Assembly (NCBI GenBank): GCA_913064995.1
Contig: CAJYBL010000002.1
Location: 1 to 35,866 of the forward strand
From: an uncultured Alphaproteobacteria bacterium
GTDB taxonomy: Bacteria; Pseudomonadota; Alphaproteobacteria; Puniceispirillales; Puniceispirillaceae
Length of the DNA stretch: 35,866 bases
Reading direction: 5' to 3'
The notes under the pieces were generated by a model. The model was not told the DNA's origin. It did no database searches and saw only the letters and a program-made list of their open reading frames with translations. Shown in pieces: positions 3,499-12,901 of the stretch (positions within the stretch are counted from its first letter, which is position 1; each line of letters starts with the position of its first letter). The position numbers and the translations under genes were made by a program.

Positions 3499-4257
3499 AT
3501 GCGGGGGCTGGTTCAGATATTTGCTGTTGGCGGCGGAGGCTTTACCCATTCGCAAGATGGTGATCGCCGTGATATGCTGCTTGAGGATCGTCTGCTGGCG
3601 TTGGTTGGGCCGGTTGCCAAACTGAAAATCGGTTATATCGGCCACGCCAATAATGATCGGGCGGATCGTCTCAAGGCTTTTTATACGCGGTTTGAGGGCT
3701 GTGCGAGAACAACGCATTTGCCGATAACGGCAGATGCGGCGATGGCACAAGATTTTTTGCAGGATCTGGATATTCTTTATGTTGGCGGGGGAACAACAAC
3801 AGCAATGCTGTCACATTGGCGCAAATCAGGTATTGCCGATTTATTGTTGGCAGCGATACGCCGGGGGCTTGTTGCATCCGGGGTTAGTGCCGGAGCGATT
3901 TGCTGGTTTTCCGACTTGCTGTTGAAAACCGGAGAGGATTGTTTTGAACCCCAGTTTGAACAGCATAAGGGGCTTGGGCTTATTGCCGGAAGCGCGTGCC
4001 CGCATTTCAGCAGCGAGCCAGCCCGAAAGCAGGCCATTGAAGCGGCGATTGCCAGTCGGCAATTACAATCAGGAATAGCCATTGATGATGGTGTTGGCGT
4101 GCATATTATCAATGGTGTGGTTGCCGAGATTGTGCGCGCTCGCAGCAGCGGGTCGGCTTATCTGCTAGCACCAGATGGTGGCATGAATACCCATCAGCCG
4201 CTCACGCACGGTCACCGGCTTGGAATGGGGTCAGCAAATGGGGATGCAAGCATATGA
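3499..4257 (+). CDS. Peptidase S51 / PepE-like (class I glutamine amidotransferase-like) protein
   Basis: 252 aa; nucleophile elbow-like GVSAGAICW and LDILYVGGGTTTAML motifs typical of the S51/PepE fold. Confidence 0.75.
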   Translation: MRGLVQIFAVGGGGFTHSQDGDRRDMLLEDRLLALVGPVAKLKIGYIGHANNDRADRLKAFYTRFEGCARTTHLPITADAAMAQDFLQDLDILYVGGGTTTAMLSHWRKSGIADLLLAAIRRGLVASGVSAGAICWFSDLLLKTGEDCFEPQFEQHKGLGLIAGSACPHFSSEPARKQAIEAAIASRQLQSGIAIDDGVGVHIINGVVAEIVRARSSGSAYLLAPDGGMNTHQPLTHGHRLGMGSANGDASI

Positions 4258-5807
4258 GACGGGGTAAAGGGGTGGGTCGATCAAGAATGGGACGCAAAAG
4301 GCGGAATAAAAACGCTGCTGATAGCCCTGTCGAAAGCCTCGAGGGCAAGCGCATTATCGGTTTTGGGCGAGGCAATGGCCCGCTACATGACGCTGACATG
4401 GTCGCGGTTCATGAGGCGGCCTTGGCATTACTAGCAAATACCGGCCTTGCCGAAGCTTCGCCGATTGTTGTTGATCTTGTCGTGGCCGCTGGCGGCGGGC
4501 TTGATTCGCGTGGCCGGTTATTATTTTCACCGGATTTGGTGACGGCGGCGCTTGCTGGTTTGCGGCGCGATATCACGCTTTATGGGCGCGCCGGTGATAA
4601 TGACATGGCGCTGTCGTCAGGGGCGGTTCATGTTGGCACCGGTGGGGCATCACCATTGATCTTTGATGCGGGGCTTGGCAAATATCGCGAAACCAATCTT
4701 GTGGATCTTTATGATGCAGCGCGGCTTGTTGACCGGCTTGACCATGTTCATTTCTTCAGCCGTCCGGTTGTTGCTCGCGACATGCCGGATGCGCGTCATC
4801 TGGATGTGAATACTGCCTTTGCCTGTCTTGCTGGCACGGCGAAGCATGTTTTTACCAGCGCCTCGTCACCAGAATCGGTAAGGGATATTGCGACCATCTG
4901 CTATCAAATTGCCGGATCCGAAACGGCGTTTCGCGACAAGCCGTTCCTGTCGCTGAATGTTAACCATGTTGTGCCACCATTGCGGTTTGATCCAATTGCA
5001 CTCAATGTGATGGTCGAAGCAGTGCGCTTCGGCATTCCGGTGATGGTTAATTGCTTTGGCCAGCTTGGTGCCTCAAGCCCAGTCACAATTGCCGGCTGTG
5101 TGACGCAAACAATTGCCGAAACTCTTGCTGGAATGGTTATTGCCTGGCTGGTTAATCCCGAGGCGCGCGCCGTTTTTGGTCCACGACCGATGATTACCGA
5201 TTTGCGAACTGGCGGTATGGCGGGTGGCAGTGGTGAGCAGGCCTTACTGACCGCAGCCGCCATTCAGATGGCACGCTTTTACCAGCTTCCCTCATCAACA
5301 ATTGCCGGGGCGACCGATAGCAAAAGCCCCGACGCGCAAAGCGGCTATGAAAAATGTTTGAATGTCACACAGACGGTTCATGCAGGGGCCAATATCATCA
5401 CGCAGGCCTGCGGTGCGCAGGCTGGCCTTATGGGACTGTCGCTTGCGGCACTGGTTATTGATAATGACATGCTGGGAAGCATTCTGCGCGCCAGCGGCCC
5501 TGTTGCCGTATCGCCCGAAACGATTGCGCTGGAATCGATCGATCGGGTGGCGTGCGGTATTGGTCATTTTCTTGGCGAGCCAGAAACCTATGCGCGGATG
5601 CATTCAGATTTTCTATATCCGAAAACTGTCGATCGTCTAGGTATAGCGGCATGGGAGGAAGCAGGAAAACCTGACATGCGTGATAATGCGCATGATCAGG
5701 TTAGGACGATTCTTGAGGAGCATCACCCAACTTATATTGACGCTAAAAGCGAAATGATATTGCGCAAGGCGCTTCCTATTTTGCTGTCGCCAAAAGATCA
5801 AACCTAA
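4254..5807 (+). CDS. Trimethylamine methyltransferase (MttB/COG5598) family protein, non-pyrrolysine
   Basis: 517 aa with family-like motifs (VHVGTGGASP, TDSKSPDAQSGYEKCLNVTQTVHAGANIITQACG); no in-frame amber within the ORF; ATGA overlap with the upstream gene. Confidence 0.88.
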   Translation: MRRGKGVGRSRMGRKRRNKNAADSPVESLEGKRIIGFGRGNGPLHDADMVAVHEAALALLANTGLAEASPIVVDLVVAAGGGLDSRGRLLFSPDLVTAALAGLRRDITLYGRAGDNDMALSSGAVHVGTGGASPLIFDAGLGKYRETNLVDLYDAARLVDRLDHVHFFSRPVVARDMPDARHLDVNTAFACLAGTAKHVFTSASSPESVRDIATICYQIAGSETAFRDKPFLSLNVNHVVPPLRFDPIALNVMVEAVRFGIPVMVNCFGQLGASSPVTIAGCVTQTIAETLAGMVIAWLVNPEARAVFGPRPMITDLRTGGMAGGSGEQALLTAAAIQMARFYQLPSSTIAGATDSKSPDAQSGYEKCLNVTQTVHAGANIITQACGAQAGLMGLSLAALVIDNDMLGSILRASGPVAVSPETIALESIDRVACGIGHFLGEPETYARMHSDFLYPKTVDRLGIAAWEEAGKPDMRDNAHDQVRTILEEHHPTYIDAKSEMILRKALPILLSPKDQT

Positions 5808-10149: not shown

Positions 10150-11265
10150 ATGAGCGAATCAGGGTTAAACATGTCGCGTCGTATCCGGCGCACCCCTTAT
10201 TCTGACAAGGTTGAACAGCATGGTGTTCGCGGGTTCAGTGTGGTCAATCATATGCTATTACCAAAAGCCTTTTCAGATTCGGTTGAAGATGATTACTGGC
10301 ATCTTCGCCAAGATGTTCAAATCTGGGACGTTGCCTGCCAAAGGCAGGTTGAAATTTCGGGACCTGATGCGACACATCTGATTCAGTTAATGACGCCGCG
10401 CGACCTTCGCCAAGCGCGTGTTGGGCAAGGGCTTTACGTTCCACTGATCGACGAACATGCTGGCATGGTAAATGATCCGGTGCTGTTGAAACTGGCTGAA
10501 AACCGTTTTTGGCTGTCGATTGCCGACTCGGATGTTCTGCTTTGGGCAAAGGGGCTGGCGGTGGGCGCGGGTCTTAATGTGGTTGTCAATGAAGCTGATG
10601 TAGCACCACTTGCAATTCAAGGGCCAAAGGCCGGCCAATTAATGGCCAGTCTGGTTGGGGATCAGATTCAGCAATTGCCCTATTTTGGGTTTGCCATGTT
10701 TGATCTTCTTGGCACAAGCCAACTGATTGCGCGATCAGGTTACAGCAAGCAGGGCGGTTTTGAGGTTTACCTTGCTGGCGGCGATATGGGGTCTGACCTT
10801 TGGGATCTGATCTGGGATGCTGGTCAGCCCTATAATATCAAGCCCGGCTGCCCAAACCTGATCGAGCGCATCGAAGGTGGGCTCATGTCTTACGGAAATG
10901 AATTCACCCTTGCCAACAATCCGCTGGAATGCGGCTTTGATCGTTTGTGCCATCTTGGTGATGAAATCAATTATATTGGTCGTGCCGCGCTTCGCCAGAT
11001 TGCCACTGACGGGCCGGTTCAAGCCATTCGCGGAGTCCGCTTTGGCGGTGATAAGACACCGCCATGTGGCAAACCATTTCCAGTAACCGGTCTGGATGGC
11101 GTGCCGGTTGGGCAGATCACATCTGGAATCTATTCGCCGCGTTTGAACTGCAATATTGGCATGTCAATGATCCTTAAAACCCACTGGGATTATGACACTG
11201 CCCTGCTGGTTCATACGCCCGATGGTGTGGTGCGTGATGCCGTGGTTTCTAGATTACCCTTTTGA
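10150..11265 (+). CDS. GcvT/DmdA-family (dimethylsulfoniopropionate demethylase-like) THF-dependent methyltransferase
   Basis: 371 aa; WDVACQRQVEISGPDATHLIQLMTPRDL, LSIADSDVLLWAKGLA, GYSKQGGFEVYLAGG, GCPNLIERIEGGLMSYGNEFTLANNPLECG, as in DmdA-like proteins; actual substrate uncertain. Confidence 0.85.
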   Translation: MSESGLNMSRRIRRTPYSDKVEQHGVRGFSVVNHMLLPKAFSDSVEDDYWHLRQDVQIWDVACQRQVEISGPDATHLIQLMTPRDLRQARVGQGLYVPLIDEHAGMVNDPVLLKLAENRFWLSIADSDVLLWAKGLAVGAGLNVVVNEADVAPLAIQGPKAGQLMASLVGDQIQQLPYFGFAMFDLLGTSQLIARSGYSKQGGFEVYLAGGDMGSDLWDLIWDAGQPYNIKPGCPNLIERIEGGLMSYGNEFTLANNPLECGFDRLCHLGDEINYIGRAALRQIATDGPVQAIRGVRFGGDKTPPCGKPFPVTGLDGVPVGQITSGIYSPRLNCNIGMSMILKTHWDYDTALLVHTPDGVVRDAVVSRLPF

Positions 11266-11362: not shown

Positions 11363-11378
11363 TTTGCCAATTGGCAAA
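11363..11378. promoter_or_regulatory. 16-bp perfect palindrome TTTGCCAATTGGCAAA
   Basis: Seen directly; 16 bp upstream of the MerR-type -35 element. Confidence 0.4.
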
Positions 11379-11394
11379 GCCATCATCTAGCCTG

Positions 11395-11425
11395 TTGACC
11401 TTCCCCTAGGAGGAAGATCTATGTT
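11395..11425 (+). promoter_or_regulatory. MerR-family (CueR/HmrR-like) promoter: TTGACC -N19- TATGTT with dyad GACCTTCC-N7-GGAAGATC
   Basis: 19-bp spacer and 8-7-8 dyad (7 of 8 paired) located in the spacer, as in CueR operators (ACCTTCC-N7-GGAAGGT). Confidence 0.8.
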
Positions 11426-11444
11426 CCGTCAGTAGGAGAAATTT

Positions 11445-11891
11445 ATGACTACCACAACCAACAGCTTAAACATCCATTGGCAGTGCAAACCTACATGGAA
11501 GCGCGCAAGCTATAACACCAGTTGGTGTTTACTTGGCTGTTCGATTGGTGATCTGGGAACGATATTTTATTTTCAAACCATGGGCATTGATTGGCCAGTT
11601 ATATGGATTATGTCGCTTGCTATTATAAATGGCCTTTTGACCTCAATCATTTTGGAAACAATCATTTTGGCGCGCCAGATGGCGTTCAACATCGCATTGA
11701 AAACGGCGTTTGGCATGTCTTTGATTTCGATGATTTCAATGGAAGTGGCGATGAATCTTACCGACTTTATGCTAACAGGCGGGGCCTTGCTCACTTGGTG
11801 GGCCGTGCCGCTTATGCTTTTTGCCGGTTTCATCACACCGTTGCCCTATAATTACTGGCGCCTGAAAGCGTTGGGCAAAGCCTGTCATTAA
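11445..11891 (+). CDS. DUF4396-like integral membrane protein
   Basis: 148 aa, multiple TM segments, C-terminal LPYNYWRLKALGKACH typical of DUF4396. Confidence 0.75.
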   Translation: MTTTTNSLNIHWQCKPTWKRASYNTSWCLLGCSIGDLGTIFYFQTMGIDWPVIWIMSLAIINGLLTSIILETIILARQMAFNIALKTAFGMSLISMISMEVAMNLTDFMLTGGALLTWWAVPLMLFAGFITPLPYNYWRLKALGKACH

Positions 11892-11964
11892 AACCACCGC
11901 ATTTAGTTTGGGACATTCCGATTATGGCCTTTCATTGCAGATCATCAAAAGGACCTTACGCAAC

Positions 11965-12411
11965 ATGACTTTACGCAAAACCACCCTTGCCGCAGCCCTC
12001 GCCCTTTCATGCGGTCTTTCTATGCTTGCCTATGCGCATAGCGGTGCCACCGGCATTGTCAAAGAACGGATGGATTTCTTCAAACAAAACAAAGATAGCC
12101 TTAAAGCCATCAAGACGCATTTTCGTAATGGTGATCTTGATGCGATTATTCCGCTTGCTAAGCAAATTCGTGATTGGGCAGAAAAGATGCCAGCCTATTT
12201 TCCAGCGGGAAGCGATGGCAAACCATCCGAAGCATCACCACAAATCTGGTTGGATTTTTCTGGATTTGAGCGTGCTGCCAATGCCAATTATCAAGCTGCT
12301 AATCAATTGGTGACTGCCGCCAAAGCAAGTGATTCCAAGGCCGCGATAAATGCGTTTAAAGCCACTGCAGCGACCTGCAAAAGCTGTCACAAATCATATA
12401 AATTGGATTAA
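11965..12411 (+). CDS. Class II cytochrome c (c'/c-556-like)
   Basis: Signal peptide MTLRKTTLAAALALSCGLSMLAYA and C-terminal haem motif CKSCHKSYK. Confidence 0.9.
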   Translation: MTLRKTTLAAALALSCGLSMLAYAHSGATGIVKERMDFFKQNKDSLKAIKTHFRNGDLDAIIPLAKQIRDWAEKMPAYFPAGSDGKPSEASPQIWLDFSGFERAANANYQAANQLVTAAKASDSKAAINAFKATAATCKSCHKSYKLD

Positions 12412-12415
12412 TGAG

Positions 12416-12901
12416 ATGCGCAAAAATACCCTTGCCTATTTATGCCTGACACTGACGGTTGCCACCCCAATGCCAAGCATTGCTGATAATCCTGTTGAAT
12501 TACGTCCCGATGACCCAGTCTATGTAAAGCTTGGAAAAAAAATCTACATGGATCAATGCGCAAGCTGTCATGGTGTGAATTTGGAAGGGCAAGCTGGATG
12601 GCGCGACAAGATGGTTGATGGCATGCGGCTTGCCCCACCACATGATAAATCAGGCCATACATGGCATCACCCAGATGCGTTGCTTTACAAACTAACCAAA
12701 TATGGGTTTGCCGCGATGATTGGCAGTGACTATAAGGTCAGCATGCCTATTTATGATGATGTGTTAAAAAACGAAGAAATCATCGCAGCCTTGTCTTATA
12801 TCAAATCGACATGGCCAGATGATGTCAGGCAAATCCATGATAAAATCAATGCTGATTACAAGCTGAACAATGCCATGGAAAATAGCAAACGCGGTTCTTA
12901 A
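12416..12901 (+). CDS. Class I c-type cytochrome
   Basis: Signal peptide then KKIYMDQCASCHGVNLEGQAGW; start at the internal Met of ORF 12350..12901, 4 bp after the preceding stop. Confidence 0.9.
   Translation: MRKNTLAYLCLTLTVATPMPSIADNPVELRPDDPVYVKLGKKIYMDQCASCHGVNLEGQAGWRDKMVDGMRLAPPHDKSGHTWHHPDALLYKLTKYGFAAMIGSDYKVSMPIYDDVLKNEEIIAALSYIKSTWPDDVRQIHDKINADYKLNNAMENSKRGS

Follow-up and report, generated by a model that had tools for sequence, protein, structure and literature searches.

The locus analyzed here raises the question of what a copper switch controls in a bacterium that lacks the copper pump usually placed under it. CueR is among the best-understood metal switches, and its usual, core target is the copper P1B-type ATPase CopA. 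An earlier note, made from the letters of a 35,866-nucleotide stretch of DNA (the window), had read a CueR-class promoter, a DUF4396 gene and two cytochrome c genes as a putative membrane protein/cytochrome module responsive to copper or another soft metal. The genome carrying the window is a SAR116/Puniceispirillum-like MAG (1.78 Mb, 279 contigs, 93% complete), and the named relatives matched through its DUF4396 protein were Candidatus Puniceispirillum and SAR116. The modular reading gained support from the conservation of the operator and the presence of CueR in the genome, and our best explanation for the locus is a CueR/HmrR-controlled copper-detoxification operon with DUF4396 as its putative core membrane effector.

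The promoter, on the forward strand, consists of a -35 element TTGACC (11395-11400; relatives keep TTKAC) and a -10 element TATGTT (11420-11425) separated by the 19-bp spacer TTCCCCTAGGAGGAAGATC, followed by a ribosome-binding site AGGAG (11434-11438) located 6 bp upstream of the ATG, whose AGGA is kept in 6 aligned relatives. An over-long 19-bp spacer with an ACCTTCC-N7-GGAAGGT dyad is the signature of the CueR class, and the operator found inside the spacer (11398-11418, forward strand), which is kept upstream of DUF4396 in relatives, comprises the left half-site ACCTTCC (11398-11404), the sequence CCTAGGA and the right half-site GGAAGAT (11412-11418). This promoter with its spacer dyad is thus as the earlier note had described it, except that the right half of the operator, GGAAGATC, agrees with GACCTTCC at 7 of 8 positions, which makes the dyad imperfect. 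The pattern TTGACCTTCC-N7-GGAAGNTNTAT with up to 3 mismatches occurs once in the window and was never recovered in 100 dinucleotide shuffles; operator and promoter at 11395-11425 are not expected by chance. When TTGACCTTCC-N7-GGAAGGT was searched across the 1.78-Mb genome with 1 mismatch, only the window site and one at the end of contig C210 were found. Another CueR-like site, C3:969, was discarded as an operator and taken as a chance match because it lies inside an alpha/beta-hydrolase-like coding sequence.

Just upstream of the promoter lies the 16-bp palindrome TTTGCCAATTGGCAAA (11363-11378), which the earlier note had listed alongside it. The palindrome is perfect and real, but as a conserved part of the system it did not hold up: it is exact only in locus L152, its symmetry is broken in the close relatives L174 and L151, and it is absent in L016. 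Random sequence of 36 kb would be expected to contain about 0.5 perfect palindromes of 16 bp; for this reason, and because relatives do not keep the symmetry, the palindrome was rejected as an operator and is probably incidental, with probably no functional part in the system. Also upstream of the promoter, window positions 10150-11265 encode the DMSP demethylase DmdA (PRK12486; 570 bits, cut-off 410); a 371-aa gene, the length of DmdA, precedes DUF4396 in L174 and not in L152.

The window harbors no MerR gene, as had been noted, and the search for a cueR/hmrR gene in the rest of the genome was successful. The single MerR-family protein encoded by the whole genome is CueR (TIGR02044; 150.6 bits against the curated NCBI cut-off of 147.4), located on contig C21 (L003, 1303-1734) and unlinked to the window. 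Its alignment to the solved structures of E. coli CueR revealed Ser77 and the Cu(I)-binding loop C112-X7-C120, and Ser77 plus both loop cysteines are present in 64 of 65 DUF4396-associated CueR homologues. A CueR-type palindrome precedes this cueR gene as well as its orthologues in two relatives, and because they lie upstream of cueR itself, the sites on C21 and C210 are probably autoregulatory. The end of C210 (L001) nearly duplicates the region between glk and cueR on C21, carries a perfect ACCTTCCTTTCAAAGGAAGGT, and probably reflects variation among strains or the binning of a relative into the MAG.

Across relatives the operator follows the regulator. DUF4396 is present in 53 of the 61 genomes of the family, and in all 28 of the near-complete ones. 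Where a family genome has CueR, the operator precedes DUF4396 at 43 of 44 loci, compared to 1 of 6 where CueR is missing (Fisher test; p = 1.7e-5), so that the expected conservation upstream of DUF4396 orthologues was borne out; the exception among the genomes without CueR, G022, has the operator and no CueR match in a draft 99% complete. Most relatives carry cueR divergently oriented and adjacent to DUF4396, with the operator in the gap, and cueR occupies the divergent -1 position in 54 of 106 distinct loci. The window's subclade has cueR elsewhere and keeps the operator in eight genomes (G000, G016, G019, G020, G024, G025, G027 and G030), a pattern that speaks for selection acting on control in trans. 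A broader profile scan yielded 80 named loci, which belong to SAR116, Rhodobacteraceae/Paracoccaceae, Sneathiella, Rhizobiaceae and other groups; since the CueR-linked DUF4396 branch served as its seed, the frequencies obtained apply to that branch and not to all DUF4396 proteins. The divergent pair of cueR and DUF4396 is also carried by the roseobacter Amylibacter marinus (L169). An operator score of at least 12 out of 14 was reached at 55 of 59 DUF4396 loci with a cueR homologue in the locus, compared to 0.33% of shuffled controls. The degenerate consensus behind this score was fixed after the family loci were known, so the fit within the family is partly by construction, and the wider loci provide a test that is independent in part.

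These data bear on the alternative that the operator-like sequence is a chance occurrence or the site of a different metal regulator, for instance ZntR or CadR. The degenerate half-site GGAAGAT speaks for such an origin and likewise counts against control by CueR. On the other side stand the results with shuffled sequences, the way in which site conservation tracks the presence of CueR, and the identity of the only MerR-family protein of the genome as a CueR with Ser77, and we consider this alternative highly improbable. Control of 11445-12901 by CueR, as judged from the sequence, is by comparison very probable.

DUF4396 is not found exclusively with CueR, a fact that weighs against our preferred explanation. 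Neither CueR nor operator accompanies it in G036, G046, G059 and G015, and members of the same DUF4396 branch from MED-G42 Pelagibacterales and similar genomes of 1.2-1.4 Mb (loci L228, L233, L235, L236 and L238) have no linked CueR and no operator. This persistence suggests that the protein may have a constitutive role, as in the Pelagibacterales-like genomes; those checked (G085, G143, G234 and G274) also lack a Cu P1B-ATPase. At seven SAR116-type loci (L193, L200, L201, L205, L208, L219 and L223) a divergent protein of about 100 aa replaces cueR and the CueR-type operator is kept; the protein is weakly similar to PF14026 (SCO4226, nickel-responsive), at 22.5 bits, below the cut-off.

Pfam profiles bore out the gene assignments made earlier from the sequence for the region downstream of the promoter, where three genes follow on the forward strand. 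The first (11445-11891) encodes the DUF4396 membrane protein of 148 aa, which matches PF14342 over the full profile (1-141 of 141; 127 bits, cut-off 27). It is followed after 73 bp by a gene for a cytochrome c' (11965-12411; 148 aa; PF01322, 88 bits), with a likely signal peptide as judged by eye and a C-terminal CXXCH heme site, CKSCH, at residue 138. Only 4 bp separate its stop codon from the gene for a class I cytochrome c (12416-12901; 161 aa; PF00034, 50 bits), which has a likely signal peptide by the same criterion and an N-terminal heme site, CASCH, at residue 48.

In relatives, the genes downstream of DUF4396 form clusters whose identities, taken from the Pfam matches of representatives, are cytochrome c (35 loci), multicopper oxidase (24), CopC-CusF fusion (24), CopD (20) and cytochrome c' (12), and at L209 DUF4396 is followed by an efflux pair of one CusB-like and one AcrB/CusA-type protein and by an outer-membrane efflux protein. 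Because operons of relatives carry multicopper oxidase, CopC-CusF, CopD and CusBA, copper is supported over another metal as the likely inducer. Locus L047 shows the order of the window with both missing ends added, namely a divergent cueR followed by DUF4396, cytochrome c', cytochrome c and a multicopper oxidase gene. The single multicopper oxidase gene of the genome under study lies outside the DUF4396 operon, on contig C4 (5600-6900; L277), and was discarded as a CueR target after no CueR-type site scoring at least 12 was found in the surrounding 5.5 kb.

Two roles other than export were considered for DUF4396. One is redox detoxification: electrons from Cu(I) in the periplasm or membrane would reach the respiratory chain through DUF4396 and the two cytochromes, with hemes performing the function of CueO. 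A cytochrome c gene comes directly after DUF4396 in about a quarter of the loci, and cytochromes under CueR have a precedent, as the cytochrome c553/c554 genes of Vibrio were predicted to be CueR targets (Permina et al. 2006; PMC1526738). Against this role, many DUF4396 loci have no cytochrome, and a multicopper oxidase often stands alongside the cytochromes (L047, L193 and L201), so we regard it as rather unlikely. The other is that of a copper chaperone or assembly factor in the membrane, which would load copper onto a multicopper oxidase, CopC/CopD or a respiratory oxidase and whose induction would serve the production of periplasmic enzymes for detoxification. It would fit both the persistence of DUF4396 where CueR is lacking and the fact that multicopper oxidase, CopC-CusF and CopD rank next after cytochrome c in frequency among the neighbors. 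The operon of the window's own group, however, encodes no cuproenzyme, the multicopper oxidase on C4 has no CueR-type site nearby, and a CueR whose sole effector was a chaperone would leave copper without an exit from the cytosol; a chaperone role is accordingly doubtful, to about the same degree as the redox one.

Neither a Cu P1B-ATPase (CopA/ActP) nor a multicopper oxidase under the same regulator, the marks of a canonical CueR regulon, was found in the genome under study. The profile for the Cu P1B-ATPase (TIGR01511) produced no match above cut-off in any of the 61 family genomes (28 of them near-complete), with one 17.8-bit fragment as the sole trace below it, and 14 of 14 control genomes were positive. 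When 387 near-complete genomes from across the Alphaproteobacteria were sampled, the ATPase was absent from 26 of the 34 genomes harboring the CueR-linked DUF4396 branch compared to 86 of the other 353 (p = 2e-9), and with one genome per family from 8 of 10 compared to 29 of 109 (p = 0.0013). With the latter comparison restricted to genomes of at most 3 Mb, the ATPase was missing from 8 of 10 and from 27 of 60, respectively (two-sided p = 0.08), and small genome size therefore accounts for part of the association; the branch is enriched in CopA-less Alphaproteobacteria, which is partly explained by reduced genome size, and this weaker anticorrelation counts against our explanation. Of the CopA-less genomes outside the family, 21 have this DUF4396 and 59 do not, and CueR scored above cut-off in 7 of the former and 1 of the latter (p = 2.4e-4). 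The exception, G219, lacks both CopA and DUF4396; at L274 (G219:C4:29500-36500), within 3526-5385, its cueR adjoins genes for an HMA-domain protein and for a small membrane protein with Cys-Cys in its first predicted helix, MerT-like by eye, which is possibly another small transporter controlled by CueR.

With the customary pump for exporting copper absent from these bacteria, a good candidate for having taken over the export or handling of copper is DUF4396. An AlphaFold2 model built from a 56-sequence alignment contains four long helical regions (pLDDT 84, pTM 0.75), predicted to be transmembrane, and Lys/Arg counts place the N-terminal tail, the loop at 75-89 and the C-terminal tail on the cytosolic side, predicting an N-in/C-in topology. 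Residues T25, C28, C32, G35, S95, M99, E100, N104, P134 and N136, among others, are invariant even against distant DUF4396 proteins of 20-30% identity; within the family, an alignment of 26 sequences shows no variation at C14, M79, M91, M96, M103, D36, D107, C147 and H148 either. Searches of the PDB, by Foldseek with two DUF4396 models (pLDDT 72 and 84) and by sequence, found no relative.

In its strong form, our explanation makes DUF4396 a true Cu(I) exporter that replaced CopA by non-homologous displacement. Cu(I) would be received by the cytosolic C14, C28-X3-C32 and C147-H148 and passed to the periplasm along a row in TM3 formed by M91, M96, M99-E100 and M103-N104. Such a role would agree with the retention of CueR where CopA is missing from the entire family, with the anticorrelation across the class, with the four helices and their charge pattern, and with the invariance of C28, C32, M99, E100 and N104. 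Set against it are the marginal size-matched association, the 8 of 34 genomes that carry both this DUF4396 and a CopA-type ATPase, the lack of a transporter-like fold among PDB structures in the Foldseek search, and a length of 148 aa that would require oligomers. On this balance a non-homologous replacement of CopA is plausible from the sequence, export by DUF4396 itself is a possibility that we hold tentatively, and a little more tentative still is the generalization that the CueR-linked branch forms an undescribed family of Cu(I) exporters replacing CopA in SAR116 and other streamlined marine Alphaproteobacteria.

For the copper-detoxification operon as a whole, we infer a metal response, copper binding and a transport or redox role that may be connected as follows. 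A rise in cytosolic Cu(I), or in Ag(I)/Au(I), would lead to binding of the metal at the C-X7-C loop of the single CueR of the genome, which would then untwist the 19-bp-spaced promoter at 11395-11425; activation through DNA distortion is an established mechanism of MerR/CueR regulators. DUF4396, cytochrome c' and cytochrome c would be co-transcribed, and the cysteines of DUF4396, as a small inner-membrane protein, would take up Cu(I) on the cytosolic side, most likely to move it out of the cytosol, or else to hand it across the membrane. The periplasmic cytochromes would probably bind or oxidize periplasmic Cu(I), where related operons use multicopper oxidase, CopC and CopD.

What gives the locus its interest is the family-wide absence of CopA, unmentioned in the earlier note. 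The switch persists, the pump is gone from a whole ocean family, and an uncharacterized small membrane protein stands in its place. DUF4396 thereby gains a specific, testable function, through which the copper tolerance of SAR116 and similar marine Alphaproteobacteria would find an explanation, and cytochrome c' and cytochrome c become predicted new targets of CueR in many genomes. Were the exporter role to prove true, the CueR switch would drive a structurally unrelated, ATP-independent exit for copper.

MerT and MerC, the mercury transporters, are small proteins of 3-4 transmembrane helices with a Cys pair in TM1. They resemble DUF4396 as small transmembrane proteins with a Cys pair, a works-like comparison only; Pfam assigns DUF4396 alone, and the setting is that of CueR, not MerR. 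Within PF14342, deeply divided into two or more branches (20-30% identity), the protein matches the family over its full length and shares C-X3-C, M-E and P-X-N with distant members, yet it belongs to a distinct, highly conserved, CueR-linked marine branch; the other is found chiefly in genomes of larger size that encode numerous metal ATPases, for example at L231 and L232. The locus resembles the cop/pco periplasmic copper resistance operons in that related DUF4396 operons include multicopper oxidase, the CopC-CusF fusion and CopD, and differs from them in being controlled by CueR instead of CopRS/CusRS, in having DUF4396 at its head and, in the window, in keeping only the cytochromes. With the CueR/HmrR regulons (copA/cueO of E. 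coli and actP-hmrR of alphaproteobacteria) it shares the 19-bp spacer, the ACCTTCC dyad, and a CueR with Ser77 and C-X7-C, and those regulons also have extra targets, such as multicopper oxidase and the cytochrome c genes predicted in Vibrio (PMC1526738); here, in contrast, canonical CopA is missing and the conserved first gene encodes DUF4396 and not a P-type ATPase. In the open literature searched, DUF4396 is mentioned in a single paper, and there only as a gene flanking a metal-resistance island of Acidihalobacter, with no link to CueR, so that as far as this literature goes its place as a CueR target is without precedent. What is new is therefore an uncharacterized DUF4396 protein as a core CueR target together with the loss of the canonical one, under a switch that is itself of a known class.
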